Shown: piece by piece, positions 4,302 to 35,482 of the stretch
How positions within the stretch are numbered: the first letter of the stretch is position 1
Layout: each line of letters starts with the position of its first letter
Source of the DNA: an uncultured Pseudomonadota bacterium
GTDB taxonomy: Bacteria; Pseudomonadota; Alphaproteobacteria; UBA9219
Direction of reading: 5' to 3'
Length of the DNA stretch: 35,733 nucleotides
Assembly: GCA_903920205.1 (NCBI GenBank)
Contig: CAIXLI010000225.1
Coordinates: 1-35,733 of the forward strand
Translations under genes and position numbers: made by a program
Notes under the pieces: generated by a model
Told to the model about the DNA's origin: nothing
Databases searched by the model: none
Seen by the model: only the letters and a program-made list of their open reading frames with translations

Positions 4302-5087
4302 TTAAACAGGTTTCTGGAACAAATGATCTCGATGCCATGTGAGCCGATAAGCGTGCTCTTTTGTTATACGACGCAAAGCCATTTTGTTGTGTAGGCCAAG
4401 AGCAATCTGATCTTGTGCTGATAACTGGCTTGAAATCAGAATGCTGCCGCTATCATCGAAGGAAATTAGTCCCGCATCAAATGCAGCATCAAGATGCGCA
4501 GCTAAAAGCAAACCATTATAAGCGTCCAGTCGTTCAGCATCAGTTTCACAAACTGCCCATGGTATAATATGGCTTGCGCGCAAAAGACGTGGCTCCGACA
4601 AACCCGTTACGGCACAGTGCCCATTCCAGTACGTCATAAGGGCTTCTCTGAAGATGTCTTGCCCGACACGCTGCACTACCAACCGTTCAACTTCAGTTGA
4701 TCGAGGTAACGCCTGCGTTCTGCTTTCGAACTCGCGCAATGGTTCAATGGGTAATGCACGCGCAAGACGCCAAATTTCACGCACAAGATAATGAAGTGGC
4801 TCAGTGTCAGCGACAACAAAAGCCGAAAAGCCTGAGGGGACGATCCCGTCCCACTTCGTCCACCGCCCCATAATATCTACAACTACGCCTGAATGGTTTG
4901 TTGCAACGACATATCCATTATCTGAACATGCAAGCCGCAGCGATGCGGGAGTCCCAAGACCATCATAGGCAAGCCAGCCTTGATGCTCCCCCAGCTTGAT
5001 CCCAAACCCTTCGTCGATAGCGGCTTTATCTAGACGGATACGATTTATTTGAGACAACGTCATATTTTCCACCATCAGTCTGATCAC
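4302..5087 (-). CDS. HNH endonuclease (HNH_2-type), last gene of defence operon
   Basis: The protein has 261 residues. The C-terminal part (about residues 150-235) holds the HNH fold: CAVTGLSEPRLLRASHIIPW, then AYNGLLLAAHLDAAFDAGLI. This matches the HNH_2 pattern (C-x-x-TG, the His pair region SHIIPW near residue 170, NGL-x-L and FDxGLI) of predicted restriction endonucleases. The N-terminal 140 residues have no motif I recognise and may bind DNA or a partner. The start is GTG 5087, overlapping the ATPase stop by four bases (GTGA), which implies translational coupling; ATG 5075 is an alternative. By position it is likely the nuclease partner of the upstream ATPase, as PtuB is of PtuA in Septu. 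That pairing is inferred. Confidence 0.85.
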   Translation of the reverse strand: MIRLMVENMTLSQINRIRLDKAAIDEGFGIKLGEHQGWLAYDGLGTPASLRLACSDNGYVVATNHSGVVVDIMGRWTKWDGIVPSGFSAFVVADTEPLHYLVREIWRLARALPIEPLREFESRTQALPRSTEVERLVVQRVGQDIFREALMTYWNGHCAVTGLSEPRLLRASHIIPWAVCETDAERLDAYNGLLLAAHLDAAFDAGLISFDDSGSILISSQLSAQDQIALGLHNKMALRRITKEHAYRLTWHRDHLFQKPV

Positions 5088-7060
5088 AAATCACGTTGGA
5101 GCAAACGACCTTCAGCTGGAGTTCCCATGAGTTTGAGACACACCCATGGTGCTTTTTGAAATTCGGCTGGAGGGTTTGACGTGGTTGTGACGATATATTG
5201 GAACAACGGTGAGCCGTTAACATCCTCTAATGATCGGATAAGCCGGAAAAGTTCGTGATAGATACTTTCACCCAGATCAGCTTCTCGCGGGCTATCATGT
5301 AGCAAAAACGCAGGGGCGCAGGTTTTTCCTTCGATGCTCAGGCACAATGCTGAAATATCGAAAGAAAGAACCTTCAAAGAGTCGATAGCTGCAGTCGAGC
5401 GGTTTCCGCCCTTATTAATCGTGACATGAAGGCCTTTTCCATCAAGAATTACTTTGCCCTCGGCCTCGCCGCCGAGAAGCCGTCTCACTATCGGATCGAA
5501 CTTCTCCGTTAAAGAATAAAAAACTTTGGCTTGCTTATCCCGAAGCAAATTCGCCTTTTCGCGTTTATCGTCTAGAGTTTTTGTCAAACCACGGACTGTC
5601 TCAACCGCCTCATTATGTTGTTGCTGCCAATCGCCAAATCTAACTGCGTCGTCAAGCAAACGACGGGCGATATACCATTGTGTTTCGCGAGCATCTCTTG
5701 ATGCTTCCAATGAGAACAACCGGCTACGAATTCGCTCATATTTTTGGATGGCAACCGCCTGGAGCGGCTTAATTTCATTTAGCCGCACCTTCAGTCCAGA
5801 TAATAGTTCTTTCTCCTTAGTCAGATCACCCTCTTTTGCTTGTCGCTCTTTTTCTATATCGGCGGCGCTCGGCGCATTGCGCAGTCTTTTGCAGTTTTCC
5901 GATAAGATTTTATCTACGGACGGATCACCTGAAGTGCATACAGCAGACTTTGCTTCAACTTCTCTGTAAGACAGCGCGGATACTTCGCCATCAATGTTGC
6001 TTATCAGGCGTTGAATGATCGGCACCTGCGCATCGATTGATACAAGCTCTTCAGACAGCTTGCGCTTTTCGTCCTCAGCGGCATCGAGTTCACTTCGGGC
6101 CGCATCAATATCCGTAGGTTCGTTCCCGGAAGGAACTTTTGCTGCCTCGGCCAACTTATCTTCTGCAGCTTTGCGGAGAACATCTATTGCCATATCTCCA
6201 TCCGCAACAACACCATCCGGCAGTTTAAGTTCTTTTATTAGTCGCGCTTTTGCCTTCTCAGCAGCCCATGCCTTGTGATTGGATTCCTGCTCAACAGCGC
6301 GTTTTTCTTCGGATAGAGAGGCAATTTCAGCGCGCAGCGCGTTCTCCTCTGCCGTAATAGCTTTTAAGAAAGCACGAAGTGCATCCAGCGTTTCCGATGC
6401 CGAAAATGATCGTACGAGAGAGTCGGAATCTGACTCAGAAGACCTCCATCCGAGCACATCATTGAAACGACATTCCTGATCTCGCGTTAACCACGCCAAT
6501 GCAATAGGCCAACCCCTCTGGCCTTCCTTGAGTTTTGGTATTAAGGAAGAAACAGCGGACGTGATAATGGAGCTTTCCACAGCATCAAGAAATGCATCGA
6601 TTTTTGTGGACTGAGATTGGCTGGAGGCAAGTGCGTCTAGGTCTCCGTTGAGAACGGCATCATGCATTTTGTTCGCTCCAAGCGAACGGACGATTGCCCA
6701 GCAATTGCCATTCAAAATGACTTCAGCTCCGACTATGCCATTAATGAATGTTTCACCGATAAGATCACGTTGTTCCTTGGGCGCAAAACGATCCTCTCCA
6801 AGGCAATAGCGCAGCAATCGACAGAAAAGTGTTTTGCCGCTGCCATGTCCTATCGTCGCTACCCCATCTGGTTCTGAAGGATCTATGCCATCAGGAGACC
6901 AAACAATATTCAGCCCAGGACGAAGGGGAATATCTCGAAGGACTTTGCCGGGTTCTTGCCATATCACCAAACGGCGCACCCAAAAACGTGGCTCTGTTTG
7001 TCCTGCTTCAGGAACAACTACGAGGTCAGGCTTTTTGATGAGATCAAGCTGCCTCGGCAT
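5084..7060 (-). CDS. SMC-like coiled-coil AAA ATPase
   Basis: This 658-residue protein has a split ATPase head. The Walker A is near residues 70-77 (IGHGSGKT), a long charged coiled coil spans about residues 230-490 (for example EENALRAEIASLSEEKRAVE), and a C-terminal head half contains AFLLHDSPREADL near residues 585-597, which carries the Walker B-like acidic residue. The layout matches SMC, RecN and DUF2326-type defence ATPases that sense DNA ends or structures and license a nuclease. The first Gly of the usual G-x-N-G-S-G-K motif is Ile and the Asn is His, a variant loop. AAGGGGGTGGG lies just upstream of ATG 7060. The first 17 bases overlap the methyltransferase gene and the stop overlaps the HNH start. 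Confidence 0.8.
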   Translation of the reverse strand: MPRQLDLIKKPDLVVVPEAGQTEPRFWVRRLVIWQEPGKVLRDIPLRPGLNIVWSPDGIDPSEPDGVATIGHGSGKTLFCRLLRYCLGEDRFAPKEQRDLIGETFINGIVGAEVILNGNCWAIVRSLGANKMHDAVLNGDLDALASSQSQSTKIDAFLDAVESSIITSAVSSLIPKLKEGQRGWPIALAWLTRDQECRFNDVLGWRSSESDSDSLVRSFSASETLDALRAFLKAITAEENALRAEIASLSEEKRAVEQESNHKAWAAEKAKARLIKELKLPDGVVADGDMAIDVLRKAAEDKLAEAAKVPSGNEPTDIDAARSELDAAEDEKRKLSEELVSIDAQVPIIQRLISNIDGEVSALSYREVEAKSAVCTSGDPSVDKILSENCKRLRNAPSAADIEKERQAKEGDLTKEKELLSGLKVRLNEIKPLQAVAIQKYERIRSRLFSLEASRDARETQWYIARRLLDDAVRFGDWQQQHNEAVETVRGLTKTLDDKREKANLLRDKQAKVFYSLTEKFDPIVRRLLGGEAEGKVILDGKGLHVTINKGGNRSTAAIDSLKVLSFDISALCLSIEGKTCAPAFLLHDSPREADLGESIYHELFRLIRSLEDVNGSPLFQYIVTTTSNPPAEFQKAPWVCLKLMGTPAEGRLLQRDL

Positions 7061-10000
7061 TTACCCACCCCCTTGTGGCATCATCTGGCAGGTTGCGAAC
7101 GATATCGTCTATGCCCTTACGTTCAAGGACGCCAACGATCATCCATGCTCGTCCACTTGCCCACTCTGGAGTCCTAATCGTATCAATATTAGTCCCCGAA
7201 GACCATGTGTTAGGCTGTGCAGCTTCTTCTAACAAAATGCCATTTTCTGTGGCAAAACCAACGGCAGTCGCCCAATGTTGGTTTGTTCTCGCGACAAGAG
7301 ATGAAGTCCCCGCAGATAAAGGTTCGGCTTCATTACCAACGAGACGCCGCCAAGTCGCAGCTTCTGTGTTTGTCAGGTAAGGTAGCAAGAGGCGTGGTTC
7401 CAGAACAAAGATCGCTGCCAGTCTGACTTGCCGTGCAGGAACTGGCTTGGCCATCGTCTTTAAGATGGCAGCAAGAGCAAGCCCCGTTCCCGTGTGTTGA
7501 TCAAGTGCCGCGCCAACACGCTCCCATGCACCATCATGGAGTGCTGAAACGTTGGGAACAACAGGTGCGGGAGCTTTGGCTGGAGCGGTCGCAGGAAGTG
7601 GAACTTTTTGTGTTTCAGCAGCCATTCCGGCAATGCGATCCCACGCTTCCAGCACGAGCTTTTCCGTGCGGAATTCTCCGTAACGGGCCTCTTCTTTGGT
7701 TTTCAGAACGCGGAATGTCTCGGAAGGATAGTCGGGGCCTTTGGCTTTCGCGGGATCAAGGATGTATTGCATCTCTTCCTTCGACAGGCCGTATTTTTTG
7801 CCAAAGAAAGCATCAAGTTCCCCGCGCAGAATGGCGCGACGGTTCTCGTCCCAGATGAATGGTTGCCCTGTGTAGCCCAAATCTTCTGCCCATGGGCGCA
7901 AGGCGTAACTTGTGTATGTCAGCTCAAGAATCCGTGGAACGACGAAATTGATGTCCGCGTCAGCAAAAGAGGAAGGCGGCAGAACTGCGAGTTGCTTGAG
8001 ATAGCTGTAGGTAAGATGTGTCCCCCCAACTGATAGGCGTGCTACGAAATCAAACGCCATGGATGTCCACAACGCTAACGAGACGGCAGCCATTTTAGCG
8101 GGTACATTCATATAAAAGAGAGGCATATTGTGACCAACCCCGACTTTTGGGAACACACTTGCTATTACCGTGCGTTCGTTAGTCGCATTGGTTATATCTC
8201 GCCAGCCCATAAGCCAGCGTGGCTGCTTACGATTGATGATAGATGATACCAAGCTTAAAGCGTCGCCAATGCCTTCGTGTAAAAAATCAACATCGTCAGA
8301 ATTCAGAGGGGTTTCCGTTTGTGCTTCGACACCGTTGGCAATAGTTTTAGGCTCCAGGAGCCAGCGATCAGTTGTCTTGCCAAGCGCGGCACGCCAAGGC
8401 CGATCACGACCGAGAATGCGCACAAGGTCATCCTCGCGCATGGGACGACCTTCATGGACATGAAAATATCCCGCCAGCCATTCTGCTAACCCTTTAAGGC
8501 AACGTTCGGTACTGTTCTCTCTCCATGCTCGCTTTAACCCCGCAGGAACACGGGCGGCCCGGAACTGCACTTCATCCACGGGAACCCAATAGCGTGGCTG
8601 AGGTTCGAAATTCACATCCTGTTTCTCAGCCAATGTAGAATCTCGTGCGCCTTCTTCATCCTCCGACGAAGCACCGGCATATGTGGCCCAACGGTGATCA
8701 AAATGATGAATCATTTTGGCTTCGTACAGGGGAACATACCGACAAATATTGCCATCAATCTCCTTCAGCCAATCGCTCATGTCCCGAGTCCAGCCATCTA
8801 CAATTAATTGCCGCTCGCTCCTAAATAATTCAGAAGCTGACGTCATATTGAAAAGGCCTTGCTGAAAAGAGACACCCCACGGATTAATATCGCCCCCAGC
8901 ATTATTCGCGCGCTCCTGAATTAATACCGGTGCCTGAACATAAAATTTTGCCGCCAACTCAGCATCTTTGCGGGAACGGAAAACTGGGGCTGTCTTGGTA
9001 TTGGGATTGATATGAGCAATTTGTTCGGCGGTTAGAGTAAAACGCCGCTCAGCTTCCTCAAAGTGGCTCGAATTGGTGAGAAAAAACGAAAATTCCGCCT
9101 CGTCGGAATTCCCGATTGTAAGCAAACAAAATTTCATTCGGCTATCAACGGCAGGAAATAGCTTCTCTCGGTTCTCAAAATCGATCAGCCTAGCTAAGCG
9201 CCCCTTTTCCACAAGATTGCCGAAAAAAGCGCTGGTAGAACTGTCTGTTGCAATCCCTGTCGGAACAATTATTCCAGAGCGCCCTTCTGGACAAGCTAGG
9301 TTTGCAAAATGTTCAGCAAACAGAGCATAGGTATTAATTTTGCCAACAGCGGTTAATCCATATCGACCCGATGTGCGAAAAAATTCATTCACAGCTTCAT
9401 GGATTTGTTTGTCAAAAATGAATTGTTCCCAGATTCTAGGGCTATTGACCCCAAGGCAAGCAATTGCTTTTTTTCGATCATCACCGGACAACGCTGCAAT
9501 TTCAGGCAATTTTGCTGCAAAATATTCTTGCTCGTCTAACTGAGATACTTCCCACGGTGGATTGCCGACGACAACATCAAACCCACCACGCGCGAAGACG
9601 TGCGGAAATTCCAAATGCCAGTGAAGTGCGCTCACTTTATGGGCGGCATCTGAAGCTATTCCGACGAGAGGGCCGTAAATGCTCTCGCCTCGCGCTGCCT
9701 TCCACACATGCTCTGTCAAAGGCATGATCGGACGAGCACGTTCGCCAGGGCCGGGAACAGGGCCTGTTTTCGGGATGAAGAACGCAGCGACAAACAAATC
9801 ACAGGCAGTCTTTAGATTTAGCCAGTTTTGACCTGTGTGGAGGTGCTCGAATGCTTTCCGTTTGGCCGAAATTTCTTCCAGTGAATTTTCTGGCATATCA
9901 ACCAGAGCACGCGCTGCGTCGATTAAATCAGCAGGAGGGCGAAGATCAGAAAGGAAGCCAGTTGCGCCCTGACCGTCGCGCTGTTCCTTGTTGTGCTTTG

Positions 10001-11900
10001 TGTATGCCTTGGCGATTTCTTTCACATCACCGGTCAGTGCCTTAAATGCCTCGTCAGGAATGCCCTTGCGCAGCATTTCGAGATCAAAGACGCCAACAAG
10101 GCTGTCACCACATCGTATGCGGGCATCTAGAAATGAAAGAGGTTTGCCCGGCTCCAACGCTTCAATCCAAAGAGCTACCTTACAAAGCTCAACAGCCATG
10201 GGGTTGCGATCGACGCCGTAAATGCAATGCGAGACAACTTCACGCAGCGCGTGCTGAAATTCCATCTGTGATGGAGCACCGGGACTACGCAACTTGGCAA
10301 TCCGCGCTGCTGCGCGTCTGGCTGCACCCAACAGAAAATGACCAGAACCGCAGGCCGGATCGATAATCGACAGTTTCAGAATTTCCGAGGCGGGATCTGC
10401 TGGATTACGCGCTTCTGCATCATCCAGTACAGGATCAAGCGTGGAATCGAGCAAGAGCTTCACAAGAGAGTCTGGCGTGTAATAACTGCCAGAGGTCTTG
10501 CGCGCATTGCCCTTGGTCTCTAACCCTTCGGCAAAATCAAAACTACGCGTTACCGCGTTTGCGCGGGGCGTTAGCTCCAGCAGGCTTTCATAAACGGAGC
10601 CAAGTTCTTCTGTCTCCATGTCTCGCCAATTGACGCGCGTCAGAGGTTGTCCTTCAGGACGAAGCCATGCGAGCCGCCATATCGCGGCCAAGAAACGCCT
10701 ATTCTCAATTTTCGCATCTGTTAGGGTCGGCATCTGCCCATGAGAGAAAAGGCCGCCAAGTGCAGGTAGTCCTAATCGCGGCTCGCCGCGAGATAGCGCC
10801 GCAAAGGTCGCCTTTAGTCCTTCCCAAACATCGACGTTGCGATCCCATGCCACGCGCCGCATGCATCGTTCACGAAGACGGTTTAATGAATAGCCTTGGG
10901 CATACGTTTTGCGGACGGCTTCAATGGCATCTGTAGGATGGAGAAGATCCCTATCTTCAGCGGCGAATAGGAAGATCAGGCGGTAAATCAGACGCAGCAG
11001 TTCTTCGAAATAGACCTGCTGGGTTAGCTTGCCTTCAGTAAGCGCCTGCCGCAAAGCGTCATTGGCGCGATTTTCCACAAATCCTTGGCCGAGTTCGAGC
11101 AGTGCAGATTCAACACCCTGACGCAGCTTGTCCCGCGCGGCCACACCTTCAACGCGGCCACGGTCACGCCAGCGCTCAAGCGCGCAGTCACTTGGAGACT
11201 TGCCTGGATCACCGAAACGGCTTTGATGAATAAGAAGCCATAGCGCAGAGAAGTCAAAGAAAAGCCCATCGGAAAAAATCTTGGCTATATCGAATTCGAT
11301 CCAGGCTGGCCGCGTAAGACTGATGTTATCGCGCATAAGCCGCAAGACCAGTCCGTCAGAGGCAAGCCCCCAAAGAATGCTGTCCTGCGCATTCAGATAT
11401 TCCTGCAAAAGCAAAGTAGCTGATCGACGACGCGTTCCATCCGCGAACTGGGCAAGACTTTCATCGACTCCGGCCTTGCGTGAGCCGTCAGCAGACGCTG
11501 GCGCTATAACAATCGGGACATGACCATCAAAAGCAGCATATGGGACAGGAAACTCGCGTGCGCCCAAGCGAACAATGGGCTGCGGCGCAACGGCATCGAA
11601 GCCAAAGCATTTCTTAAGAAGCTCAGCAACAAATTGGCTGGATGCATTTACGTTCTGTCGGCGAGATGCAGAAAACTTGGCCCAAAGAGCCTCTCCGATA
11701 CGATAATAGCGCGCGATTTCATCCCGAAGTTTTAGACCAGGTTCAATGCCATAGCTTTCCTCAGTCTGGTCGTTGGCTTCAAAAGTCGCAATCTTGGCAA
11801 CCATATCAGGTGTGAGAAGCGCGCCAATAATCTCTATACCCGCGAAATCAAGTCGTGCGCTGCGACGGGATTGCCGGAGTCTGGAGGAATTTCGTGCCAT
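7044..11900 (-). CDS. Large Eco57I/PglX-like N6-adenine-type DNA methyltransferase (DrmMI-like)
   Basis: The product has 1618 residues. I chose ATG 11900 because GAGGAAAG lies directly upstream; the frame is open to 11930 but that start would overlap the helicase gene. After GSYYTPDSLVKLLLDST (about residue 470), the SAM-binding motif I is DPACGSGHFLLGA (residues 514-526) and the catalytic motif IV is GNPPW (N780), which marks a gamma-type amino methyltransferase, most likely m6A. Residues 1-450 resemble the N-terminal region of type IIG/PglX-like proteins, but the expected PD-(D/E)xK residues are not evident, so nuclease activity is doubtful. The region after residue 800 should include target recognition. 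In class 1 DISARM a large methylase of this kind marks self DNA; that role is inferred here. Confidence 0.85.
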   Translation of the reverse strand: MARNSSRLRQSRRSARLDFAGIEIIGALLTPDMVAKIATFEANDQTEESYGIEPGLKLRDEIARYYRIGEALWAKFSASRRQNVNASSQFVAELLKKCFGFDAVAPQPIVRLGAREFPVPYAAFDGHVPIVIAPASADGSRKAGVDESLAQFADGTRRRSATLLLQEYLNAQDSILWGLASDGLVLRLMRDNISLTRPAWIEFDIAKIFSDGLFFDFSALWLLIHQSRFGDPGKSPSDCALERWRDRGRVEGVAARDKLRQGVESALLELGQGFVENRANDALRQALTEGKLTQQVYFEELLRLIYRLIFLFAAEDRDLLHPTDAIEAVRKTYAQGYSLNRLRERCMRRVAWDRNVDVWEGLKATFAALSRGEPRLGLPALGGLFSHGQMPTLTDAKIENRRFLAAIWRLAWLRPEGQPLTRVNWRDMETEELGSVYESLLELTPRANAVTRSFDFAEGLETKGNARKTSGSYYTPDSLVKLLLDSTLDPVLDDAEARNPADPASEILKLSIIDPACGSGHFLLGAARRAAARIAKLRSPGAPSQMEFQHALREVVSHCIYGVDRNPMAVELCKVALWIEALEPGKPLSFLDARIRCGDSLVGVFDLEMLRKGIPDEAFKALTGDVKEIAKAYTKHNKEQRDGQGATGFLSDLRPPADLIDAARALVDMPENSLEEISAKRKAFEHLHTGQNWLNLKTACDLFVAAFFIPKTGPVPGPGERARPIMPLTEHVWKAARGESIYGPLVGIASDAAHKVSALHWHLEFPHVFARGGFDVVVGNPPWEVSQLDEQEYFAAKLPEIAALSGDDRKKAIACLGVNSPRIWEQFIFDKQIHEAVNEFFRTSGRYGLTAVGKINTYALFAEHFANLACPEGRSGIIVPTGIATDSSTSAFFGNLVEKGRLARLIDFENREKLFPAVDSRMKFCLLTIGNSDEAEFSFFLTNSSHFEEAERRFTLTAEQIAHINPNTKTAPVFRSRKDAELAAKFYVQAPVLIQERANNAGGDINPWGVSFQQGLFNMTSASELFRSERQLIVDGWTRDMSDWLKEIDGNICRYVPLYEAKMIHHFDHRWATYAGASSEDEEGARDSTLAEKQDVNFEPQPRYWVPVDEVQFRAARVPAGLKRAWRENSTERCLKGLAEWLAGYFHVHEGRPMREDDLVRILGRDRPWRAALGKTTDRWLLEPKTIANGVEAQTETPLNSDDVDFLHEGIGDALSLVSSIINRKQPRWLMGWRDITNATNERTVIASVFPKVGVGHNMPLFYMNVPAKMAAVSLALWTSMAFDFVARLSVGGTHLTYSYLKQLAVLPPSSFADADINFVVPRILELTYTSYALRPWAEDLGYTGQPFIWDENRRAILRGELDAFFGKKYGLSKEEMQYILDPAKAKGPDYPSETFRVLKTKEEARYGEFRTEKLVLEAWDRIAGMAAETQKVPLPATAPAKAPAPVVPNVSALHDGAWERVGAALDQHTGTGLALAAILKTMAKPVPARQVRLAAIFVLEPRLLLPYLTNTEAATWRRLVGNEAEPLSAGTSSLVARTNQHWATAVGFATENGILLEEAAQPNTWSSGTNIDTIRTPEWASGRAWMIVGVLERKGIDDIVRNLPDDATRGWVNAEAA

Positions 11901-11907
11901 GCTTTCC

Positions 11908-14700
11908 TCAGATCTTCGGTAAAAGAACATATAGGCCTATCACGTCAGCTGGCGTGATGGTCTCGACTTTAACGGACGCCTTAGAACCCAGAGCTTGGCG
12001 AACGCGAGAGTGATCTTCCGCCAGTATCCCAGCACGTTCCACAGCATAAGCATCTAGCGCGGGCGATAGGCTGTCCAGTTTGGCAACTACTGAAGCAAGC
12101 TGGGCGTCTCGCACACGTTCAATAACATTTCCGCTATCTGCTTCGAGCAACGCAAATGCTTTTTCTCCATCAGCCACGCGAACGTCATTCTGAAAAGCGA
12201 TTGCGGCAGCTTCTTCTGCCATAGCAAATTGTGGCCCAAGTCGACCGCGTGAATCGATGCGATGTCGTATTCTTAATAACAACAAGGTAGTGACTGCCTC
12301 GACCGCTCCAGATTCCCACACACCACAACGCGGTAAAGTTGCTGGATCATCCTGTCTTGACTGGGGATCAAGCGCATTTTCAAGAAACGTTTCGGCGAGC
12401 ACACTCGGCAAAGGATGTGCGCGGTGAATTGACAAATATCCTGCGCGGGGACGAGCTTCGAATGCCACCTTCAGGGGCTTCGCTGTAGCGTCGTCATTAA
12501 GCAGCCCTTCGGTTGCAAAACGTTCCCTGAGTGTTTCCGGAACAAGGTGCAGTGGTGCCGTATATCCCCCAAGTGACTGCGGCGTCAGAGCAGCCCCCAA
12601 ACGCATCAGCGACCGTGAAACAAAACGTTCCGTATCCTCGAATCCCCCAAGCGATTTACGCGTGGCCTCCCATTCAGGAGCTACTTCTTCCGGTTTGATG
12701 CTTCGCTGAGCAAAAATCGTGCGCGCTTTCTTTTCCTTCTCAGATGCATTGATCCAAGCGAGGTCAATCTCTTTTGCCTCTTGGGTATCCGTAACTGTGA
12801 AATCCAAATTCAATTGGCGCCTGTCTTTAGCACGCAGCAGCACGGCAGACATGAGCGCTTTGGTTAAACTGCCGTTTTCATCCGGCATAGGGACTTGCAC
12901 GCCCGTTCTTTTTTCTATGGCGCGGGCTTTACGCAAAATGACATCGAGGACAGCTCCATCCACCGGATTGTTCTCACCGTAGATCAGGATTGTGCGGACT
13001 ATTTCATTTTTTTGTCCAAATCGATCGACACGACCATCCCTCTGTTGATGTCTGGTGGGGTTCCAAGATAAATCATAATGAACAACAGCGTTAAAATATG
13101 CCTGTAAATTAATGCCTTCAGACAAGCAGTCGGTAGCAACCAGAATCCGGTTATCTTTCTCTCCGAGAGCCTCAACACGTTTTTCACGCTCTTCGGATGG
13201 GAGCGCCCCCGTAACAACCTCGACGGTGTGGCCCTTAAATGCCTTTTGCAGTGCTTCGCCGACAGCCTCAGCTGTAGCAATGTAGCGACAGAAAACAACT
13301 GGCGAATATTTTCCTTCAAGTAGGTTATTTATGGAAGATTTTAGAATTGAGAACTTTGGATCACGTGCAAAGTTCTCACCAAGCCGTTCAGCCTGATCGA
13401 TCAGAGACTGCAAGCGAGAACTTTCGAGTGCTGCCCCTGGTTCCAGATCATCTTCTACGGCCTCTTCATCATCAACTGTGCTTGCAGCGATCTTTTCAGC
13501 ATCTGCGTTGTCTGCATCGAGGATAGCGCGCGTTCTAAGTGCGCGAAGCGCAGCAGCTGGACTAGATCCGACGCACCGCATCAATGCTAAAGTTCCCCAG
13601 AAAGCCAAGCGACGACGCAGGTCACCTTCTTCAGCTTCAACAGCTTCGGCACAATAGTCGAGCACATCACCAAAAAATCGTTCAGAATCGCCTGAGAGTT
13701 TGTATTTCAGTTCCGTTATCTCTCGTTGCGGGAATATCCCCGGCTCACGCCAAGCATCAATGTCTGCTCGACGCCTCTGGATAAAATGGCTGGCAAGGCG
13801 CTCGCGCAGACCTCGATGTGTATCATCTGCGGCATCAGAAAGCCCAATAAAGTCGGGATGAAGCAAACCAAGGAGGTTATGGAAGGCCGTCTCATCACCA
13901 GAATGAGGCGTAGCGGTAAGCATAACTATGTGCCGTGAGTTATCTTCAGCCAACTTTTTGAGAAGTTCAAAACGACGATGTCGCGATTGACCGCCAGTTA
14001 CGGCAGAGTGAGCTTCATCCACAACAACCATTTTGGGACACGCCCGAAGAAAATCATCAAGGCGTCTATCGCTCTTGATGAAATCCATACTAACTACAGT
14101 GTAAGGGTAAGCCTCAAACACACTCATGGTATTTGGCAAATCGCGTTCTAAGCGCACTGCCTCTGATGCAGTGACGGGCGTCGCTGTTAAAGAAAATTTT
14201 GTTTCAAGTTCAGATGTCCACTGCTCCACAAGATGCGGCGGGCAAAGCACTGAGAAACGATCAATTTCTCCACGATCAATTAATTCGCGCAGAATTAGTC
14301 CGGCCTCAATAGTTTTACCTATACCGACATCATCAGCAATCAAGAGACGAACTATTTCTTGACGAAGTGCCATCATCAATGGCGCAAGTTGGTAGGCGCG
14401 CGGTTCAAAATTAATCCGACCAGCTCCACGGAATGGGCCGGCGCCTCGCCGCAAGGAAAGTTTTAGAGCATCCCGCAAAAGGAGCGCTGCTTCACGAGGG
14501 CCAGCTCGCATATCATTCGGAGGAGCAATCGAAGTATAAGTTACATCTTCAAGCTCAAGCTCTGGAACAATAGTCTCAACGTCCTGTTCGGAACCGCTTA
14601 ATGGCCGAAGACGTAGGGCATCCCCTGAACTCAGGACGATCCACTGGCGATTTCGGGCACACACCAGTTCGCCAGGAGAAAAGGTGGCTACTGCATTCAT
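11908..14700 (-). CDS. drmD: SNF2-family helicase, DISARM DrmD-like
   Basis: The 930-residue protein opens with a FSPGELVCARNRQWIVL segment and LRLRPLSGSEQDVETI, then GAGPFRGAGRINFEPRAYQL. I recognise this N-terminal pattern from DrmD proteins of class 1 DISARM. Helicase motifs follow: IADDVGIGKT (Walker A, residues 121-130), DEAH (228-231), LTATPHSG (261-268), and in the second lobe ATDCLSEGINLQ and QRDGRVDRFGQ (residues 553-563). It should be an ATP-driven DNA translocase. The start ATG overlaps the preceding stop by four bases and the stop is seven bases before the methylase start, which fits stoichiometric co-expression with both neighbours. The family call is from memory of the motif pattern. 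Confidence 0.85.
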   Translation of the reverse strand: MNAVATFSPGELVCARNRQWIVLSSGDALRLRPLSGSEQDVETIVPELELEDVTYTSIAPPNDMRAGPREAALLLRDALKLSLRRGAGPFRGAGRINFEPRAYQLAPLMMALRQEIVRLLIADDVGIGKTIEAGLILRELIDRGEIDRFSVLCPPHLVEQWTSELETKFSLTATPVTASEAVRLERDLPNTMSVFEAYPYTVVSMDFIKSDRRLDDFLRACPKMVVVDEAHSAVTGGQSRHRRFELLKKLAEDNSRHIVMLTATPHSGDETAFHNLLGLLHPDFIGLSDAADDTHRGLRERLASHFIQRRRADIDAWREPGIFPQREITELKYKLSGDSERFFGDVLDYCAEAVEAEEGDLRRRLAFWGTLALMRCVGSSPAAALRALRTRAILDADNADAEKIAASTVDDEEAVEDDLEPGAALESSRLQSLIDQAERLGENFARDPKFSILKSSINNLLEGKYSPVVFCRYIATAEAVGEALQKAFKGHTVEVVTGALPSEEREKRVEALGEKDNRILVATDCLSEGINLQAYFNAVVHYDLSWNPTRHQQRDGRVDRFGQKNEIVRTILIYGENNPVDGAVLDVILRKARAIEKRTGVQVPMPDENGSLTKALMSAVLLRAKDRRQLNLDFTVTDTQEAKEIDLAWINASEKEKKARTIFAQRSIKPEEVAPEWEATRKSLGGFEDTERFVSRSLMRLGAALTPQSLGGYTAPLHLVPETLRERFATEGLLNDDATAKPLKVAFEARPRAGYLSIHRAHPLPSVLAETFLENALDPQSRQDDPATLPRCGVWESGAVEAVTTLLLLRIRHRIDSRGRLGPQFAMAEEAAAIAFQNDVRVADGEKAFALLEADSGNVIERVRDAQLASVVAKLDSLSPALDAYAVERAGILAEDHSRVRQALGSKASVKVETITPADVIGLYVLLPKI

Positions 14701-17700
14701 GATGACTTCTTTCCAAGTAGCGAGGTGATGTGCGCGAACGCTTCCGCGCGCTTCTTCTCATCTTTTGAGAGGACTACAAGCTCAATGCCCTTTGCAGCAA
14801 TCTTCTCACGAAGATGTGGAAGAACTTTTTCCTCTTCAATAGCAGCTACCCTAGCTAATCGCCATACGAGAGTGATTGTTATGTCGCCAATCGTAAGAGG
14901 CTCAACGTCCGGAGCAGGACAGCCTCTTATGTCTACCGTTACGGGTATAACCTTAATCGGCAACGAATTATCCGAAAAAGCCAATCGAAGAAGTATTTCT
15001 TGTACTATCTTGTTGCGTCTATCAATCAGCTCATGATCTGGCTGGTTGAAGTAGGATAGCAAACAGCGATAACACCCGGCCACACAGCGAACACCCGGGA
15101 CTACGCTCAACGTATCTGCGCCACTTAAAGCAGCCGCCTGTAATGAATTAGGATCAAAATGCATAATCTCTAATGCTTTCCGAGCAACAGTGTGAAAACT
15201 GTTTCTGTCATTCATAAGCCGCGAAAGCGCACCTGCACCGCCTTCCGCTGCTTCGTAAAAAAACAAAGCGCGACGATCTTTACGATTGGGCGTTGGCTCT
15301 GCCAGAATTTCTCCTTCTTCGAGCTGGTAGACAGCCTCAATGCCGCGCGCTAGCGCATGCTGAAGCGTGGCCATTACTGTGTTTGTGTCGTCACTTGTCT
15401 CCGCAATCCACTTTTCTGGAAAACGGAGAAGCAGCGCATTCTTCCGATCTTCAACGACTGGTGTAATTCTTTGCCTGACATTTGTGGGTAATCGTTCTTC
15501 ATTATCCTGCGAACTGGCTGCTCCGACCCAATAGCCACTTTTAGGGTCTATGCAGAAGCCAATTTCACTTTCGTCCTTGCGGCGCCTGAGTCCCTTATTG
15601 ATGCGTCGCACCAAAGCCGCAGGCGCGAAAATAGCTGTCAGGATTTCACCTGTTGTATCGCTTACCTCCCTCGTTAAATTTCCTGACGCCTGCTGAAAGG
15701 AGAATGTCGTCTGAAGGTCAAAACCTTGTCGACGGCGATCTTCATCATTTGCCGTTATCCGCTCAACCTGTTTCGTGCCAACATTCTCAATTTTATGTAG
15801 CTCGCGGATGATGTTGGATCCATTCAATGGGTGGCCACACACATGGCATTTTTCAGGCGGCTCTCCATCATGGCTTGCTCCACACGTTGGACAAACGGCA
15901 GTGCTAAAAGTGGGCAACAGGCCATCCGGGCCACCGCCGGCCTCTTTCAACAAAGCCCTGTCAACACGGTAGGCGCGCCCCTCATGGTAAACCAAGCTTC
16001 CGGGGCCGAATTCAGCTATTGCGAGGAATCTCGCCCGCTGCAGATACCGTTGCCCTTTGCCTCCTTGTCCACCTGGAACGAAGGCCATTAAAGGCAATCG
16101 AGGAAAATTGTATCCTGGCAAGAAGCCTTCTGTGGCCAAGTAACGATAAACATAAAAATCAGAACCTTGATTTTCAGCACCCTGTAGAAGCAATTTAATT
16201 TGAGTATTTCCAGCCGCCTGTCTTCCTTCCGCTGCCCTACGTTCAATCGGAGAGATTGAGTAATCCTGCAGCGTGCGGGTGGCGTCGTCTACTTGTCGTT
16301 CTGCCGCACGAAGGAGATCTCTCCAGCGATCGAAGGCACATGCAAAAATGCCGGGGGCATTTGCAATTATCGTTTTAGCATGTTGTTTGATGTCGATAAG
16401 CCAATCGGGCAATACATCTCCATAATCCCGTTCCAGCGCAGAAAGTACGGCCCTCACGCACTTTTCAGCGGCCAAAACTGTTTCTTGTGATGATATTCGG
16501 CTCCAAATATCAGCCAGAAGTGGTTTGTTTTGGGACGTCATATCCAGATTTCTAGATATGGCGCGATCAAGCTCTAGCCCACTCGCTGCTAACCATTCTG
16601 CATGAAGATGACTCGCCACTAAATCCGGATTAGTGAGATCAATTGATGGAGGTTTAACAACACCATCCACCATAGCCTTGGGTTGTTCGAAAAAATACTG
16701 ATCATGAGGACTCTGTGCGGCACAATACGCAACGACGAGTGCCGCTTGACCACTTCTTCCAGATCTGCCGCTTCGCTGAGCGTAATTGGCAGGTGTCGGG
16801 GGAACATTGCGCATGTAAACAACATTCATTGTGGATATGTCGACGCCCAACTCCATTGTGGGTGAACAAAAGAGCGTTGGGAGAAATCGGTTGTCCTCAC
16901 GCAGCTCTTTTAGCCGATCTATTTTCGCGGCTAATGATTTCTGGTCATCAGAAGAAAAACGAAACCGCGCCTCACGCAGTTCACGCAGATCGCTATCCAC
17001 CTGAGCGGTATGTTCGCGCCCCTCTAAACCGAAAAGCGCACCTCCGCCTGCCGCTAATAGTTGTGCGATTTCTTCATAAAGCCCCCGAAAGAAGGGGTTC
17101 TTGTGTTCCGTGTTATCTTCATGCTCTGTCGCTTTGAAAGCTATGGACGAGGAAATAAGTCGCCATCCGTCGCCGCCGACAGGTGACGCAACTTGAGTGG
17201 CGATACCTTGTTTTTTTGCAGCCCTCAATATGGTTTCGATAATTTCAACAACTTCTTGACTGGATGGGTGCTCCCCAGAAAAGGTCATTTTCTTGAGTTC
17301 GCGCCCTACAAGACTTTGTGAACTACCTCGCAAAATAAGGGCTTCATCTTTTTGTTGTAAGTCATTTCGGCTTGGTGGTCTAGGCATGAACACAGATGCT
17401 GCAAAAAACCTTTCATCATCAAGACACCAGGGAGCCTTGATAAGGCTTCGCATGCGCCCCACGAGACTTTCAATTTTTAGCCTATCCAACGCATCGCATT
17501 CAACAGCAAGGCCTCTGCGCATAGTATCAAACAAAACCTTGGCTGCTTTTTTTCTTTCTTCTGATGATGCCGCACTCAGAACGCGAGACCCGCTAAAAAA
17601 GCTTTCTTCAAGAACCATTTCATCAAGAGATAGATAGTGAGCTTCTATAAGCCCAAGCTGTTCGAGATTGGGATTTGTATATCTCCAGCCTCTGCGTTGG

Positions 17701-19922
17701 TCGACCCAGAACCGGTGTGTTAATCCCTCACGCAACGTACGTTCTGCGCCTAATAAATTTGCCCCTCTTAGGTCTGGCTCAATCAGCCATTCGCTTCTTC
17801 GATCAATGTTTGTGCTAGTAAAGCCTAAAGTTCGCTGTACAGCTTGGCCGATTTCATCTTCCTGCAGTCCTTCGGTTCCCGCCCCAGACAAAGCAGCCAA
17901 GACCGCACCACGGAAAAGCGTAACAAAAATAAAATCATTAAAGTGACCAGCCTGAAGTGCTGCATCTTGACGGTTGTCTGTAAATGCCAAAAGTTTCTGC
18001 GTGATAGGGGGTATCCCAGCATCTGGCGCACGCATCCAACGAAGGATTGCCGCAATGATAATTGTAGTAGCAGAACTTCTTCCCTCAGCACTGAGTGACG
18101 CCAATCTATTAATGTCTCGCGTGGAGTCGCTGTGATAATCACCACATGCGGGACAGAATTTAAATCTTCCTGGCAAGAACCAAGCGTGCCGCCCATCTAT
18201 GCCGCAAGAGCCATTGGGGCGAACCAATAGCATTTCGGCACGCGTTTTGCGGTATGAGGGCTTTAACCGAAGCTCTCCAGACTTTGATTCCTCGAGCCAT
18301 GCATCAGGATAATCTTCATCTCTTCCTTGAAATTCAAAGTTGCCCTCCACAGGTTCCGGCATAAGGAAGCCCCAACGCCCCGCCTGATCGTTGGAGTCTT
18401 CTTCATCATTGATTGGAACATCGTCAATCTCTCGCTTCTCAAATCGTTGGCCTTCATCATATCTCTTTAAGGTTACCGGATGATGTTCTTGCCCACAGCG
18501 ACGACAAAAATGTGTTGCATAAAGCCGCTTCTCTGGATGTTCAGGATCAAAAATCTGTCCGTCAAAAGTTACCGTCCGAGAGCCAGATACATCTAAAGTC
18601 GAATATAATCTTCCTGCGCCAGAAATAAACTGGTGAAGCTTAAAGGCAAAGAATGGTTCATCGCTACCATTCGGTACATTCCGCTCTTTTTCCGAGAGGC
18701 TGAATGCAAGTAACGCAGATTTAAGACTTTTCTCACAAACCTCTAAAGCCACTCCAGAATCTTTGGCCAAAGTTTCCGCAGCCTCTTTCAATGATTGGGG
18801 GCTGGCGCGTCGAGGTTTGCTCTCAACACATTTGAGGCCGAGCCTAGTTTCAACCCATATGGCTAATGGATCGCGAGCAATTGCTGCGTTAGACATTCCC
18901 TCATAAATCAAGCCCGCATCTGCCCGGTCGATCGCAAGATTAAGATCTGCAAGACCATGATCGGCAGACCTCCGAATATCGGTTACTCGTTTGAGGGTTT
19001 CTGTGACGATTGCATCACGTGAAATTTTTGTTCCAAACAAGCGTGATGCAACATCAGCTACGATTTGATTCTGATCTGCTTCTTCACCCTCATTGGCCAT
19101 AGTAGCTGAAGTTCCGATGCAAGTCGGAGGATACGCAGGATCGCCAACGCGCACACGGAGGCGACGCATTAGCATAGCAACATCGGCTCCTTGACGGCCC
19201 CGATATGTATGCAATTCGTCCAGGACAACAAATTTTAAGCCACGACAATTCTCAATTACACGCTGGTCAAGATCAGCCTGACGCGTCATGAGAAGTTCAA
19301 GCATCATAAAGTTTGTTAACAGGATGTCAGGAGGGTTATTTTTTATTTTCTCCCGCTCTTCCTGAGTCTCTTGCCCCGTATATCGGGCAAACGTAACTGG
19401 TACATGGCTATTTGACGTATGGAGAAATTTCTTCAGTTCTTCCTGTTGGCTATTAGCCAATGCGTTCATGGGGTATATAATGACGGCTCGTGTTTTAGGA
19501 GCTTCTCCAGCAAGCTTTGCTTTGATAATGGCGTCCACAATAGGAATAAAAAAGCATAGCGACTTTCCAGACCCCGTTCCTGTGGTTACTACATAGCTTT
19601 TGCCGCTAAGAGCCAAGCCAATTGCTTGTTCTTGATGCCTCCGCAGCCGCAAGCTTTGGTCCTGCGCGTGTGCCGAGGCTCGGCCATCCCGAAAAATTTT
19701 TGCACACTCTTTAGAAAGCCCACCACCTTCAACTAAAGATAAAACCGACCCGCCTTCCTCATAATGAGGGTTAAGCTGTATCAGCGGCTCAGGCCAGAAT
19801 TTCCGGCCTTCATACAACGTATTTACTTTGGTTTGTAATTCCGAGGATCGAATGCGCGTGAATGATCGCGCAAATGCCGTATACTGCTTTAATACCCAGT
19901 TATCTAGCGAGAAAACATCCAT
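14697..19922 (-). CDS. DEAD-box helicase with C-terminal DUF1998 region (DrmA/DrmB-like or DruE-like)
   Basis: This 1741-residue protein has its first helicase lobe at about residues 95-280: VVTTGTGSGKS (Walker A, K120), IIYPMNALANSQQEEL, and VVLDELHTYRGRQGADVAML with DELH at 235-238. The second lobe appears only near residues 990-1070 (SPTMELGVDIST, QRSGRSGRSGQ), so about 700 residues are inserted between lobes. Cys clusters, probably zinc sites, lie near residue 472 (CRRCG), 590 (CPACG), 1344-1362 (CPTCG, CHVCG) and 1611-1618 (CVAGCYRC). The last is part of the DUF1998 region together with EAAEGGAGAL (about 1553-1562). DISARM normally splits these functions into DrmA and DrmB, and Druantia DruE also joins a helicase to DUF1998. 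AAAGGAT precedes ATG 19922. Confidence 0.85.
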   Translation of the reverse strand: MDVFSLDNWVLKQYTAFARSFTRIRSSELQTKVNTLYEGRKFWPEPLIQLNPHYEEGGSVLSLVEGGGLSKECAKIFRDGRASAHAQDQSLRLRRHQEQAIGLALSGKSYVVTTGTGSGKSLCFFIPIVDAIIKAKLAGEAPKTRAVIIYPMNALANSQQEELKKFLHTSNSHVPVTFARYTGQETQEEREKIKNNPPDILLTNFMMLELLMTRQADLDQRVIENCRGLKFVVLDELHTYRGRQGADVAMLMRRLRVRVGDPAYPPTCIGTSATMANEGEEADQNQIVADVASRLFGTKISRDAIVTETLKRVTDIRRSADHGLADLNLAIDRADAGLIYEGMSNAAIARDPLAIWVETRLGLKCVESKPRRASPQSLKEAAETLAKDSGVALEVCEKSLKSALLAFSLSEKERNVPNGSDEPFFAFKLHQFISGAGRLYSTLDVSGSRTVTFDGQIFDPEHPEKRLYATHFCRRCGQEHHPVTLKRYDEGQRFEKREIDDVPINDEEDSNDQAGRWGFLMPEPVEGNFEFQGRDEDYPDAWLEESKSGELRLKPSYRKTRAEMLLVRPNGSCGIDGRHAWFLPGRFKFCPACGDYHSDSTRDINRLASLSAEGRSSATTIIIAAILRWMRAPDAGIPPITQKLLAFTDNRQDAALQAGHFNDFIFVTLFRGAVLAALSGAGTEGLQEDEIGQAVQRTLGFTSTNIDRRSEWLIEPDLRGANLLGAERTLREGLTHRFWVDQRRGWRYTNPNLEQLGLIEAHYLSLDEMVLEESFFSGSRVLSAASSEERKKAAKVLFDTMRRGLAVECDALDRLKIESLVGRMRSLIKAPWCLDDERFFAASVFMPRPPSRNDLQQKDEALILRGSSQSLVGRELKKMTFSGEHPSSQEVVEIIETILRAAKKQGIATQVASPVGGDGWRLISSSIAFKATEHEDNTEHKNPFFRGLYEEIAQLLAAGGGALFGLEGREHTAQVDSDLRELREARFRFSSDDQKSLAAKIDRLKELREDNRFLPTLFCSPTMELGVDISTMNVVYMRNVPPTPANYAQRSGRSGRSGQAALVVAYCAAQSPHDQYFFEQPKAMVDGVVKPPSIDLTNPDLVASHLHAEWLAASGLELDRAISRNLDMTSQNKPLLADIWSRISSQETVLAAEKCVRAVLSALERDYGDVLPDWLIDIKQHAKTIIANAPGIFACAFDRWRDLLRAAERQVDDATRTLQDYSISPIERRAAEGRQAAGNTQIKLLLQGAENQGSDFYVYRYLATEGFLPGYNFPRLPLMAFVPGGQGGKGQRYLQRARFLAIAEFGPGSLVYHEGRAYRVDRALLKEAGGGPDGLLPTFSTAVCPTCGASHDGEPPEKCHVCGHPLNGSNIIRELHKIENVGTKQVERITANDEDRRRQGFDLQTTFSFQQASGNLTREVSDTTGEILTAIFAPAALVRRINKGLRRRKDESEIGFCIDPKSGYWVGAASSQDNEERLPTNVRQRITPVVEDRKNALLLRFPEKWIAETSDDTNTVMATLQHALARGIEAVYQLEEGEILAEPTPNRKDRRALFFYEAAEGGAGALSRLMNDRNSFHTVARKALEIMHFDPNSLQAAALSGADTLSVVPGVRCVAGCYRCLLSYFNQPDHELIDRRNKIVQEILLRLAFSDNSLPIKVIPVTVDIRGCPAPDVEPLTIGDITITLVWRLARVAAIEEEKVLPHLREKIAAKGIELVVLSKDEKKRAEAFAHITSLLGKKSS

Positions 19923-19994
19923 GCGATTGATCCTTTGACTTCATTTGCTTCACTCAAGATTTGATAGAACACCGACAAAACATCGTTTCTCCAT

Positions 19995-21773
19995 TCATTG
20001 TGTTGCGATACCTGCTCCTTCGGAATTAAGTTCGGAGCGAAGCGCGGTGAAGAGCAGATCGCGGCGAGCTGCACAAAACTCTAAAAAAACGCTATATGAG
20101 AAAATTGGCATCGGAGGAAACTTGTGCATTGCCAGAAAATATCCTCTTTCGGTTTCATTCGGGAATTGCTTCACAAGCCATTCTTCAAAATCAGTATCTG
20201 ATTTAATCTGGTTTGGCCCACCTTGAAGCAACTGCAAATTCGAAATATTGTCACGCATTGCAGATGCCTCCTTGGCAGTTTCCGGCGTCAATCCCTGAGT
20301 AATCAGACGCCTTTCGGTCATCTTGGAGCGGGGGTAGATATGGTCAATATGGAACCGACTTGAGTAATCGAAATTGGGATAAAGTAAACTTAACAACAAG
20401 AAAGTGCGATTATCTCCATATTCCATGTCGAGTAGAGCTTCAATCTCATCCTCTGAAAAACGTACGGAACGGTTCAGTCCAGTCAATCTGGCGTTAATGG
20501 CTTCGGCAGGAAATGAATCACAGGATGCTTCGGCAAGCACACCGCGAATTGCCGCCAAAATAGTATCGGCCATTGACCCAAAAGTGCCGCGCAACAAAAC
20601 GGTTATAAGCCACCTGCGAATGATGCCACGATCTGTCCTCTCGGCATTAGAAATCAGAAAACTATTTGTAGCCCCACGCTTGCGTAGATAATAAGCGATT
20701 GGAATTAGTGCATTGACAGACAGCAGCGAGCGGTCGGTAAAACCAAACGATTGCACTAACTGCATCGTTAGTGAAAGAGCGCACCGGATCGAGCCCCATT
20801 CGGTTTCAATCTGTGCCATATTGTCATTACTAAAATTTGTAACTTTGAACTTGATGTCTCCAATGTCGGAAAGCACTAATGATGCTTTCAGCACGAAATC
20901 CTTATCAACTGTTAGCTCGTCACTGTAGCTTTTCAGCTCATCGACTAGGCCATGAATTTCCTGCCTGGCATCACGCGTCTTCCACAATGCCGTGGCAAAA
21001 GACAGCAGTAGATCTGAATAGGAAAGCTTTGTCCCACCGCTGTTTATGCGGATAAATATTTGCAAAACCTTATCAAGATCGCCGTCCTTCTCCAAAAAGT
21101 AGTTTATTGCCGGTTCGGTATTAAAGCACTCGCAGAGTCTTGCTAACGTGTTGGCAGCAAAGTCACGTTGTGATTTTGGTGCAGAGCTTATTTTTTCGTC
21201 AGTCATAAAAGCCAGAACATCTGCCACACATCGCATTTTTTTGAAAATCTCAGGTATTGCCACCCACCAACGTTCTGCATCAACTCCTGCCTCTTCGGCA
21301 GTTAGAAAGCGAAGCGCATAACGCTTTTCACCATCGCTTTCGTCAGCAGGATGCATCAGGTCTATATAAAGTTTTCGTTCCGGATATGCCGATAGGTTTG
21401 ATCGGCGCTTATTCGGCAATCGGCAGGCATAGGTTCCGGCAAGACCGATTACGAGAGATGTCAACCGCTGTTGGCCATCTAAAACCGCCGTTACATCTTG
21501 CCTGGAGCCAAGTTGTGCCGGTTCATTATGACGCGCCAGAGCCTCATGATAGGCCGTAAGAAATCTATAGAACTGCCACTTCCCTGCATGACCTTCGGGG
21601 ATACTCCAAAACAGAAAACTACTGATCGGATATCCGCGCAAAATAGAATCAAAGAGCATTTCGATCTGCGCTGTGTTCCAAACAAACTCGCGTTGGATCG
21701 ATGGCAGAACATACTTGCCATCAAGAACATTTTGAACCGTCTGTCTGATTGTTATCGGGGTTTCAAAGGGCAT
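19995..21773 (-). CDS. DUF262/DUF1524 GmrSD-like nuclease, first gene of defence operon
   Basis: The 592-residue product starts at ATG 21773, where AGGA lies eight bases upstream; ATG 21782 is an in-frame alternative. The N-terminal DUF262 (ParB-like) domain shows IQREFVWN (about residues 26-33), the NTP-binding DGQQRLTSL (residues 99-107) and IFIRINSGGT (about 240-250). The C-terminal DUF1524 HNH-type domain shows HIDHIYPRS near residue 477, followed by NISNLQLLQGGPNQIKSD. GmrSD-type enzymes are known as NTP-dependent type IV restriction endonucleases that cut modified phage DNA; here both halves are on one chain. It opens the operon, 72 bases ahead of the DUF1998 helicase, behind an AT-rich promoter-like region. 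Whether it acts alone or with the helicases is not visible. Confidence 0.85.
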   Translation of the reverse strand: MPFETPITIRQTVQNVLDGKYVLPSIQREFVWNTAQIEMLFDSILRGYPISSFLFWSIPEGHAGKWQFYRFLTAYHEALARHNEPAQLGSRQDVTAVLDGQQRLTSLVIGLAGTYACRLPNKRRSNLSAYPERKLYIDLMHPADESDGEKRYALRFLTAEEAGVDAERWWVAIPEIFKKMRCVADVLAFMTDEKISSAPKSQRDFAANTLARLCECFNTEPAINYFLEKDGDLDKVLQIFIRINSGGTKLSYSDLLLSFATALWKTRDARQEIHGLVDELKSYSDELTVDKDFVLKASLVLSDIGDIKFKVTNFSNDNMAQIETEWGSIRCALSLTMQLVQSFGFTDRSLLSVNALIPIAYYLRKRGATNSFLISNAERTDRGIIRRWLITVLLRGTFGSMADTILAAIRGVLAEASCDSFPAEAINARLTGLNRSVRFSEDEIEALLDMEYGDNRTFLLLSLLYPNFDYSSRFHIDHIYPRSKMTERRLITQGLTPETAKEASAMRDNISNLQLLQGGPNQIKSDTDFEEWLVKQFPNETERGYFLAMHKFPPMPIFSYSVFLEFCAARRDLLFTALRSELNSEGAGIATQ

Positions 21774-21853
21774 CAACAGCATCCTGAACGAGGGGAACTA
21801 CCGCTTGCGCAGGAGTTTTGCAGAACCTGATTTTATGGGGCTTTTGTAATTAA

Positions 21854-23368: not shown

Positions 23369-23527
23369 TTGGGTTCTCCTCAGGGACAAATTCAAGCTGT
23401 GAACGCCGACATTTGTCTTGGATAGCACCCAGATGTGTCAGATTCGGTCACACTCGCGTTTTATCCGCTTTATTTCCTGTGTAATGCCTTTAAAGTTCCA
23501 GCAGTGACATCGTTAACGGAGAAGAAA
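23369..23527. promoter_or_regulatory. Divergent promoter region between lipoprotein operon and WYL regulator
   Basis: These 159 bases separate two divergent genes and must hold at least one promoter each. A TGTAAT at 23480-23485 could be a -10 for the WYL gene, without a convincing -35. An imperfect dyad, GTGT...ACAC around 23435-23453, might be an operator. WYL regulators often bind such divergent regions, including their own promoter. Assignments are tentative. Confidence 0.3.
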
Positions 23528-31433: not shown

Positions 31434-31445
31434 TTTCTTCTCCTG

Positions 31446-33100: not shown

Positions 33101-33125
33101 CGACTTGCCTTATTGATAATCCTCT

Positions 33126-33163: not shown

Positions 33164-33174
33164 GCACCCGTCAC

Positions 33175-34500: not shown

Positions 34501-34610
34501 CGGAGTTATCCTTTTATGTGTTGATACGGTGGTGTCGCAACGTGTGCGTCACGCGAGAGATCAATAAGGATCGGTGTGGTTAACTTGCAGTCGCCGTTTG
34601 GGGGACAAGC

Positions 34611-34883: not shown

Positions 34884-34899
34884 TTCTACGCGCACGCGT

Positions 34900-35481: not shown

Positions 35482-35482
35482 G

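Follow-up and report, generated by a model that had tools for sequence, protein, structure and literature searches.

A putative defence locus of six genes

Six adjacent genes with hallmarks of several antiviral families raise the question of whether they make up one merged defence system, as the initial annotation proposed, or a known system with additions. The genes lie in the window, i.e., the whole 35,733-nt stretch analysed here, which is one contig of a 2.3 Mb draft genome. We consider it likely that the locus is an ARMADA Type I variant in which the nuclease is now supplied in trans instead of in cis and a Lamassu-type DNA-sensing motor is attached to the methylase. ORF calling in the window finds six complete ORFs at this position, all on the minus strand, bearing out the initial annotation, which was right to see one operon-like defence locus here. 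The span that it gave, 4302–21773, has the correct lower bound, but the GmrSD gene extends to 21782; position 21773 belongs to an ATG inside this gene, three codons from its beginning. Five of the genes overlap, by 4 nt between those for the HNH endonuclease and the SMC ATPase, 17 nt between SMC ATPase and methylase, 23 nt between methylase and SNF2 helicase and 4 nt between SNF2 helicase and DEAD-box helicase, and the GmrSD gene is located 72 nt upstream of this five-gene block. Scans for sigma-70 promoters and terminators gave scores no better than those of shuffled sequence. The six domain assignments made earlier agree across Pfam, PADLOC and NCBIfam, and the combination of methylation, two helicases and nucleases stands as described. 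Catalytic motifs are whole in all six proteins, with the sole exception of the tail of the DEAD-box helicase, which is of nuclease type.

The core trio matches ARMADA Type I in gene content and order

ARMADA, described in a preprint by Bell et al. (2025; PMC12458937), brings together two helicases, one of the YprA family with DUF1998 fused to it and one BrxHII-like, and a PglX-like methylase. According to its main text, the YprA helicase gene of Type I usually comes first, followed by BrxHII and then PglX, and the YprA helicase carries BrxA-like and MarR-like inserts and, typically, a predicted active Vsr nuclease at its C-terminus (PMC12458937). The window has the same trio in the same order. 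The YprA-family, DruE-like helicase (14697–19922, minus strand, 1741 aa, ArmC-type; PADLOC DruE, E 1.6e-89) holds the Pfam domains DEAD, Helicase_C and MZB, the last marking the fused MZB/DUF1998 part, in one chain, just as the initial annotation had read it. The BrxHII/DrmD/DpdE-like SNF2 helicase (11908–14700, minus strand, 930 aa, ArmA-type) matches the PADLOC DpdE model PDLC02853 over its full length with 656 bits, and also DrmD and BrxHI/II. The PglX/DrmMI-like adenine-N6 DNA methylase (7044–11930, minus strand, 1628 aa, ArmB-type; PADLOC DrmMI, E 2.8e-73; Pfam Eco57I/N6_Mtase) has intact DPACGSG and GNPPW motifs. In a comparison with the ARMADA Type II locus of E. coli ATCC 8739, the BrxHII-like helicase matches ArmA (E 2e-44), the methylase matches ArmB (E 6e-21) and the YprA-like helicase matches ArmC (E 7e-32) as well as DruE of the same strain.

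In a helicase tree with the Type II ArmC and the DruE of E. coli as references, 38 loci lie apart from both. By gene content and order rather than by clade, the locus is assigned to ARMADA Type I as a new variant. We speak of a variant and not of a plain Type I member because the Vsr nuclease, described as active in Type I in the preprint's main text, is dead in the window helicase. That main text likewise makes no mention of the HNH gene, the LmuB-like SMC ATPase or the methylase extension of the window; the terms SMC, Lamassu, GmrSD and DUF2326 are absent from it, and the sole match to “HNH” falls in the reference list. The earlier claim that no named system has this set therefore holds in part: the core already bears the name ARMADA Type I, whereas the remainder looks like a new variant.

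The operon had also been called DISARM-like. It is related to class 1 DISARM through its DrmD-like helicase and DrmMI-like methylase but is not DISARM, since the locus lacks separate DrmA and DrmB as well as DrmC, none of the six proteins matches DrmB or DrmC, the DrmD model scores 301 bits against an NCBI cut-off of 610, and the YprA helicase is nearer to Druantia. The remark that the six genes include no phospholipase-D nuclease is correct. Although the large helicase matches DruE best in PADLOC, Druantia III is rejected because PADLOC finds no DruH among the six proteins; other Druantia genes are also missing from the locus, which has BrxHII and PglX homologues in their stead. For Hma, only a 170-bit match to the HmaA-like helicase and no match to HmaC (a DUF499 ATPase) were obtained. 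No PglZ or BrxC domain occurs among the six genes or the scanned flanking ORFs, as BREX would require, and no PtuA/PtuB model of Septu is matched, the ATPase being assigned to LmuB. In sum, the searches against DISARM, Druantia, BREX and Septu profiles that the initial annotation suggested return DrmD-, DrmMI- and DruE-like matches but not the defining parts of each system. A literature search for defence systems combining DUF2326, HNH and methyltransferase found none.

The five-gene order recurs in other genomes

Searching with the helicase, we obtained relatives from 11 of 299 genomes at phylum level, from 7 of 385 genomes at class level and from 70 plasmids. The order YprA–BrxH–methylase–SMC–HNH is present in Mesorhizobium AR02 and AR07, Agrobacterium deltaense, Rhizobium leguminosarum, R. 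gallicum and G294, being carried on plasmids of Mesorhizobium, Agrobacterium and Rhizobium and found in other genomes; as it recurs in unrelated genomes, it is not due to chance. The same order with one gene added between SMC and HNH occurs in an Acetobacteraceae MAG (a 441-aa ORF) and in G586 (a GmrSD-like gene), and the remaining loci have the core alone, the core with SMC or the core with HNH. The check proposed earlier, a search for the same six-gene order elsewhere, thus yields the five-gene order, but GmrSD is missing from most such loci.

Several of these loci hold further genes. The 441-aa ORF between SMC and HNH (L006:11973–13298), from the closest MAG relative, has no Pfam or PADLOC match. 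In a Vsr-intact locus (L022:5099–6770), a HipA-like kinase and a HIRAN-domain protein are encoded between BrxHII and the methylase, and a HIRAN-type relative of the latter is also present in L029. Directly upstream of the Mesorhizobium AR02 locus (L053:6152–13829) are genes for a DUF6361 protein, a PLD-family protein, a ZacC-like helicase and an AbiE toxin–antitoxin pair, which makes the region a more extensive defence island, borne by a conjugative plasmid.

A separate HNH protein accompanies loss of the fused Vsr motif

In relatives, the last domain of the YprA helicase is of the Vsr/DUF559 type and has the motif PDF...DGPHH. An alignment of helicase tails reveals that the corresponding domain of the window helicase (14700–15065, minus strand) is degenerate: the catalytic PDF...DGxxH motif is lost, and the tail gives no DUF559 match, whereas the tails of relatives do. 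This decay was overlooked in the initial annotation. All other HNH-bearing loci are likewise without the Vsr motif. Among the 27 loci where both HNH and Vsr could be judged, 11 have HNH without Vsr and 16 have Vsr without HNH, both mixed classes being empty. When the helicase tree is built without the C-terminal tail, all Vsr-less helicases fall into one clade (98% SH-aLRT), and HNH and Vsr change once each on the tree; the four members of this clade without a visible HNH gene comprise two contig ends, one IS21 insertion and one truncated locus. Since the Vsr-less helicases form one clade, the swap counts as one event on the tree, and for the same reason the HNH/Vsr table is not repeated independent evidence and the exclusivity is unreplicated. 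HNH distances follow those of the helicase (Mantel r = 0.95, compared with 0.99 for BrxH, 0.76 for the methylase and 0.57 for SMC), arguing that HNH was inherited with the core. Collectively, the HNH protein probably replaced the Vsr nuclease in one ancestral event, Vsr decay being the probable explanation for the presence of the HNH gene; as a correlation, this exchange of nucleases has good support. On this evidence, an ARMADA-type system can hand its nuclease role over from a domain fused to the helicase to an HNH protein encoded separately, so that swapping genes offers a test of the cutting step.

In another locus (G186, L034:2955–9534), the SMC gene is followed, as we read the ORF translations, by genes for a superfamily-1-type helicase and for McrB- and McrC-like proteins, so that a different set of nuclease genes takes the place held elsewhere by HNH.

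The SMC ATPase co-occurs with a C-terminal extension of the methylase

The SMC/Rad50-type ATPase (5084–7060, minus strand, 658 aa) has Lamassu LmuB as its nearest PADLOC family, with a weak match (E 2.6e-15), and it is DUF2326-like with a Pfam match below the cut-off (E 0.004); a clear plasmid LmuB (L059) is a 22% relative. Its Walker A motif GHGSGKT and Walker B region HDSPREADLG are conserved in 17 homologues. Listed earlier as a nuclease-related module, the protein is instead an LmuB-like ATPase, paired with a C-terminal domain of the methylase that had gone unrecognised. An SMC-first search finds the gene in 2 of 385 genomes, both with ARMADA. Sequence comparisons indicate that the SMC gene moves between loci, given its low correlation with the helicase and the fact that the SMC proteins of L056, L057 and L069 are closer to that of the window than their helicases are. 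In relatives, the coiled coil of the SMC protein contains a Rad50-type, zinc-hook-like CPIC...C motif; this motif is lost in the window protein, which has CTSG at about residue 375.

The C-terminal extension of the methylase (7047–7613, minus strand, ~180 aa) is confined to SMC-bearing loci. Past the last common motif, methylases have 150–230 residues with SMC and 3–51 without it. In the 23 loci where the extension is either homologous or absent, extension and SMC are concordant throughout, with five independent changes (five of five pairs; sign test, 0.06). Adding five loci with tails of similar length gives concordance in 28 of 28 loci and eight changes (p 0.016), although these tails have no detectable sequence similarity to the extension; since a profile comparison with the tails of these five SMC-bearing loci found none, they are called similar in length alone. 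On plasmids, the extension is present in seven records, each time adjoining an SMC gene. On a viral contig (L132), a type III restriction subunit (Res) ends in the same domain (E 6e-28), and the SMC gene then follows. No extension was found in the phage collection. With their strict co-occurrence and the presence of the extension on a type III Res, extension and SMC look like a mobile two-part module, and a Lamassu-like module is moderately supported.

The operon on the viral contig (L132:192–14141) encodes an SNF2-HKD helicase, a DUF4391 protein, a type III methylase, Res with the LmuC-like extension, SMC and a Schlafen AlbA_2 protein, and is a second hybrid defence operon.

The extension resembles a Lamassu subunit in its modelled fold

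Lamassu systems (LmuA–LmuC–LmuB; ABC-3C) include a small protein, LmuC, so called because its gene is the middle one of the operon, and a Lamassu middle component was expected here from operon logic before structures were compared. Sequence searches with the extension against PDB and Pfam gave no match. An AF2 model of the extension, of middling quality, was built from three sequences (pLDDT 69.7), and its best two matches among 350,542 PDB chains come from Lamassu complexes, 9ny5_C and 9uxh_D (Foldseek E 0.04). These chains are 171 and 170 residues long and, judging from this length, are presumably LmuC. In VIA-align, three Lamassu entries reach Z 7.1–7.2 over 121–135 residues, whereas the cullin domains that score equally align over 67–76 residues; the best Lamassu chains, of 164–171 residues, cover nearly the whole modelled extension, compared with about 75 residues for the level cullin winged helices. 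MukE and Wadjet subunits, which are also SMC partners, rank lower. The extension has no sequence match to any LmuC, including in a profile comparison with one Lamassu-type middle component, and PADLOC finds no LmuA effector among the six proteins. Taken as modelled, the extension is likely, though not proven, to be LmuC-like. In the window, the LmuB-like ATPase is encoded right after the LmuC-like domain, the same order as in Lamassu; unlike in Lamassu, this domain is fused to a methylase, and sequence similarity is remote.

More tentatively, as we lean slightly against it, the LmuC-like domain and the LmuB-like SMC may constitute a mobile module for sensing, which becomes fused to whichever subunit lies directly upstream in unrelated DNA-targeting systems, i.e., a PglX-type methylase, a divergent MmeI-annotated methylase and a type III Res. 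The module would add Lamassu-style sensing of DNA structure and, in the window, would work with the trans HNH protein that replaced the Vsr domain of the helicase. This reading suggests that the Lamassu sensor could be a plug-in attachable to methylases and restriction subunits, linking two families thought to be separate, and a recognisable docking domain permits a scan for more hybrids.

Alternatively, a plain ARMADA Type I trio could work alone, with SMC and HNH as a distinct toxin pair, Lamassu- or Septu-like, that has inserted behind the trio. Such an insertion would suit an LmuB-like SMC gene of patchy distribution that moves between loci, and an SMC–HNH pair does stand alone in Paracoccus versutus. 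Yet the P. versutus pair still has, next to an IS21-type insertion, the final 67 residues of the extension of the methylase; it is therefore an insertion-cut remnant and is rejected as an independent module. HNH is moreover present without SMC in four loci (L060, L076, L077 and L078) and follows the helicase tree, and the methylase has its extension only when SMC follows. We regard a separate pair as unlikely and prefer an ARMADA Type I variant with the motor attached to its methylase.

The HNH protein is related to enzymes that cut modified DNA

The HNH endonuclease (4302–5087, minus strand, 261 aa; Pfam HNH_2) is composed of an N-terminal domain of ~110 aa and a C-terminal HNH domain like that of VcaM4I. 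It matches PDB 6yex (E 9e-32 over residues 125–255), and its AF2 model (pLDDT 93) matches the fold of 6yex with Z 17.6 and that of TagI with Z 10.6. SHI and NGLLL motifs are conserved. The EVE-HNH enzyme VcaM4I shares the homologous HNH domain and the layout with an extra N-terminal domain; however, the N-terminal domain of the window protein is not recognisably EVE. This domain is confidently modelled and has a weak fold likeness to the DNA-binding domain of T4 MotA (Z 7.8). The gene recurs after the methylase or after SMC in sister loci. In 385 genomes, an HNH profile yields four full-length matches, namely the window, two ARMADA loci and one gene beside a BrxH fragment, a helicase remnant; the remaining 14 matches cover the nuclease half alone.

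In a set of IMG/VR contigs (L085–L095 and L097), an ARMADA-type HNH gene is found at or near one end, followed by genes on the opposite strand, an arrangement that looks as if prophage-like elements sit right behind an ARMADA-type operon.

With VcaM4I and TagI as the nearest restriction enzymes of the HNH domain and with the methylase motifs intact, the locus could be read as a restriction–modification-like system: the PglX-type methylase would shield host sites, HNH would be its partner restriction enzyme with matching sequence specificity, and the helicases would do no more than aid translocation. VcaM4I and TagI, however, cut modified and not unmodified DNA, and relatives with an intact Vsr keep everything else without HNH. 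In addition, the main text of the ARMADA preprint reports that E. coli ARMADA Type II protects without cell death and needs all its genes, both helicases included (PMC12458937). This makes a restriction–modification-like system improbable, and the ARMADA Type I variant with a trans-acting nuclease is retained.

A proposed working of the locus

The comparisons show which genes are present, in what order and how they recur, the loss of the Vsr motif, the mutual exclusion of HNH and Vsr, the strict pairing of SMC and extension and the identity of BrxU; from these we infer catalytic steps, docking and an antiviral role for the locus. The methylase would mark host DNA, and the two helicases would load on phage DNA that is unmarked or replicating and travel along it. 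The SMC ATPase may dock on the methylase through the LmuC-like domain, sense foreign DNA structures such as ends and forks, and thereby license the complex. The HNH protein would very likely cleave in trans, in place of the dead Vsr.

The upstream GmrSD is a BrxU-type enzyme

The GmrSD type IV restriction enzyme (19995–21782, minus strand, 595 aa) aligns end to end with BrxU (PDB 7p9k; E 1e-134 over residues 10–586) and matches PADLOC HEC-05, the same group as BrxU, with 696 bits. It has a DUF262 domain with DGQQR and a DUF1524 HNH domain, and the DGQQR and HIDH motifs are intact. BrxU acts alone, cuts DNA with 5mC, 5hmC or glc-5hmC and seems to spare N6mA, and so it would not harm methylase-marked DNA. 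The window gene differs from known BrxU/HEC-05 genes in adjoining an ARMADA-type locus and not BREX or Hma.

The single six-gene system with GmrSD as a working subunit, proposed by the initial annotation, is very improbable. In its favour, GmrSD is close to the operon in the window and directly upstream in Paracoccus marcusii (L076) as well, and other GmrSD-type genes take other positions in L057, L062, L069 and L077. Against it, the window protein corresponds throughout to an enzyme that works alone, BrxU relatives occur on 360 plasmids, chiefly enterobacterial, and most loci that have the five-gene order are without the gene. Given how common its relatives are in other settings and that the majority of sister loci do without it, GmrSD is rejected as a core subunit and is best seen as a stand-alone enzyme and optional neighbour of the ARMADA Type I variant. 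It may provide an additional layer of its own: phage DNA whose cytosines are modified would evade a system based on methylation but would be cut by this enzyme.

Further upstream of the operon, the window encodes a WYL-domain regulator (23435–24517, plus strand) and an RNase H-like/AAA helicase (26002–29421, minus strand) that is weakly MkoA-like and of the TM0106 type. The same regulator–helicase pair (39% and 43% identity) stands upstream of the ARMADA-type locus on the Sphingomonas plasmid pISP0 (L077). The defence region is adjoined by genes for a PRPP synthetase-like protein, a HAD hydrolase, an APH-type kinase, a class V aminotransferase and a NUDIX protein (30225–35505, minus strand).
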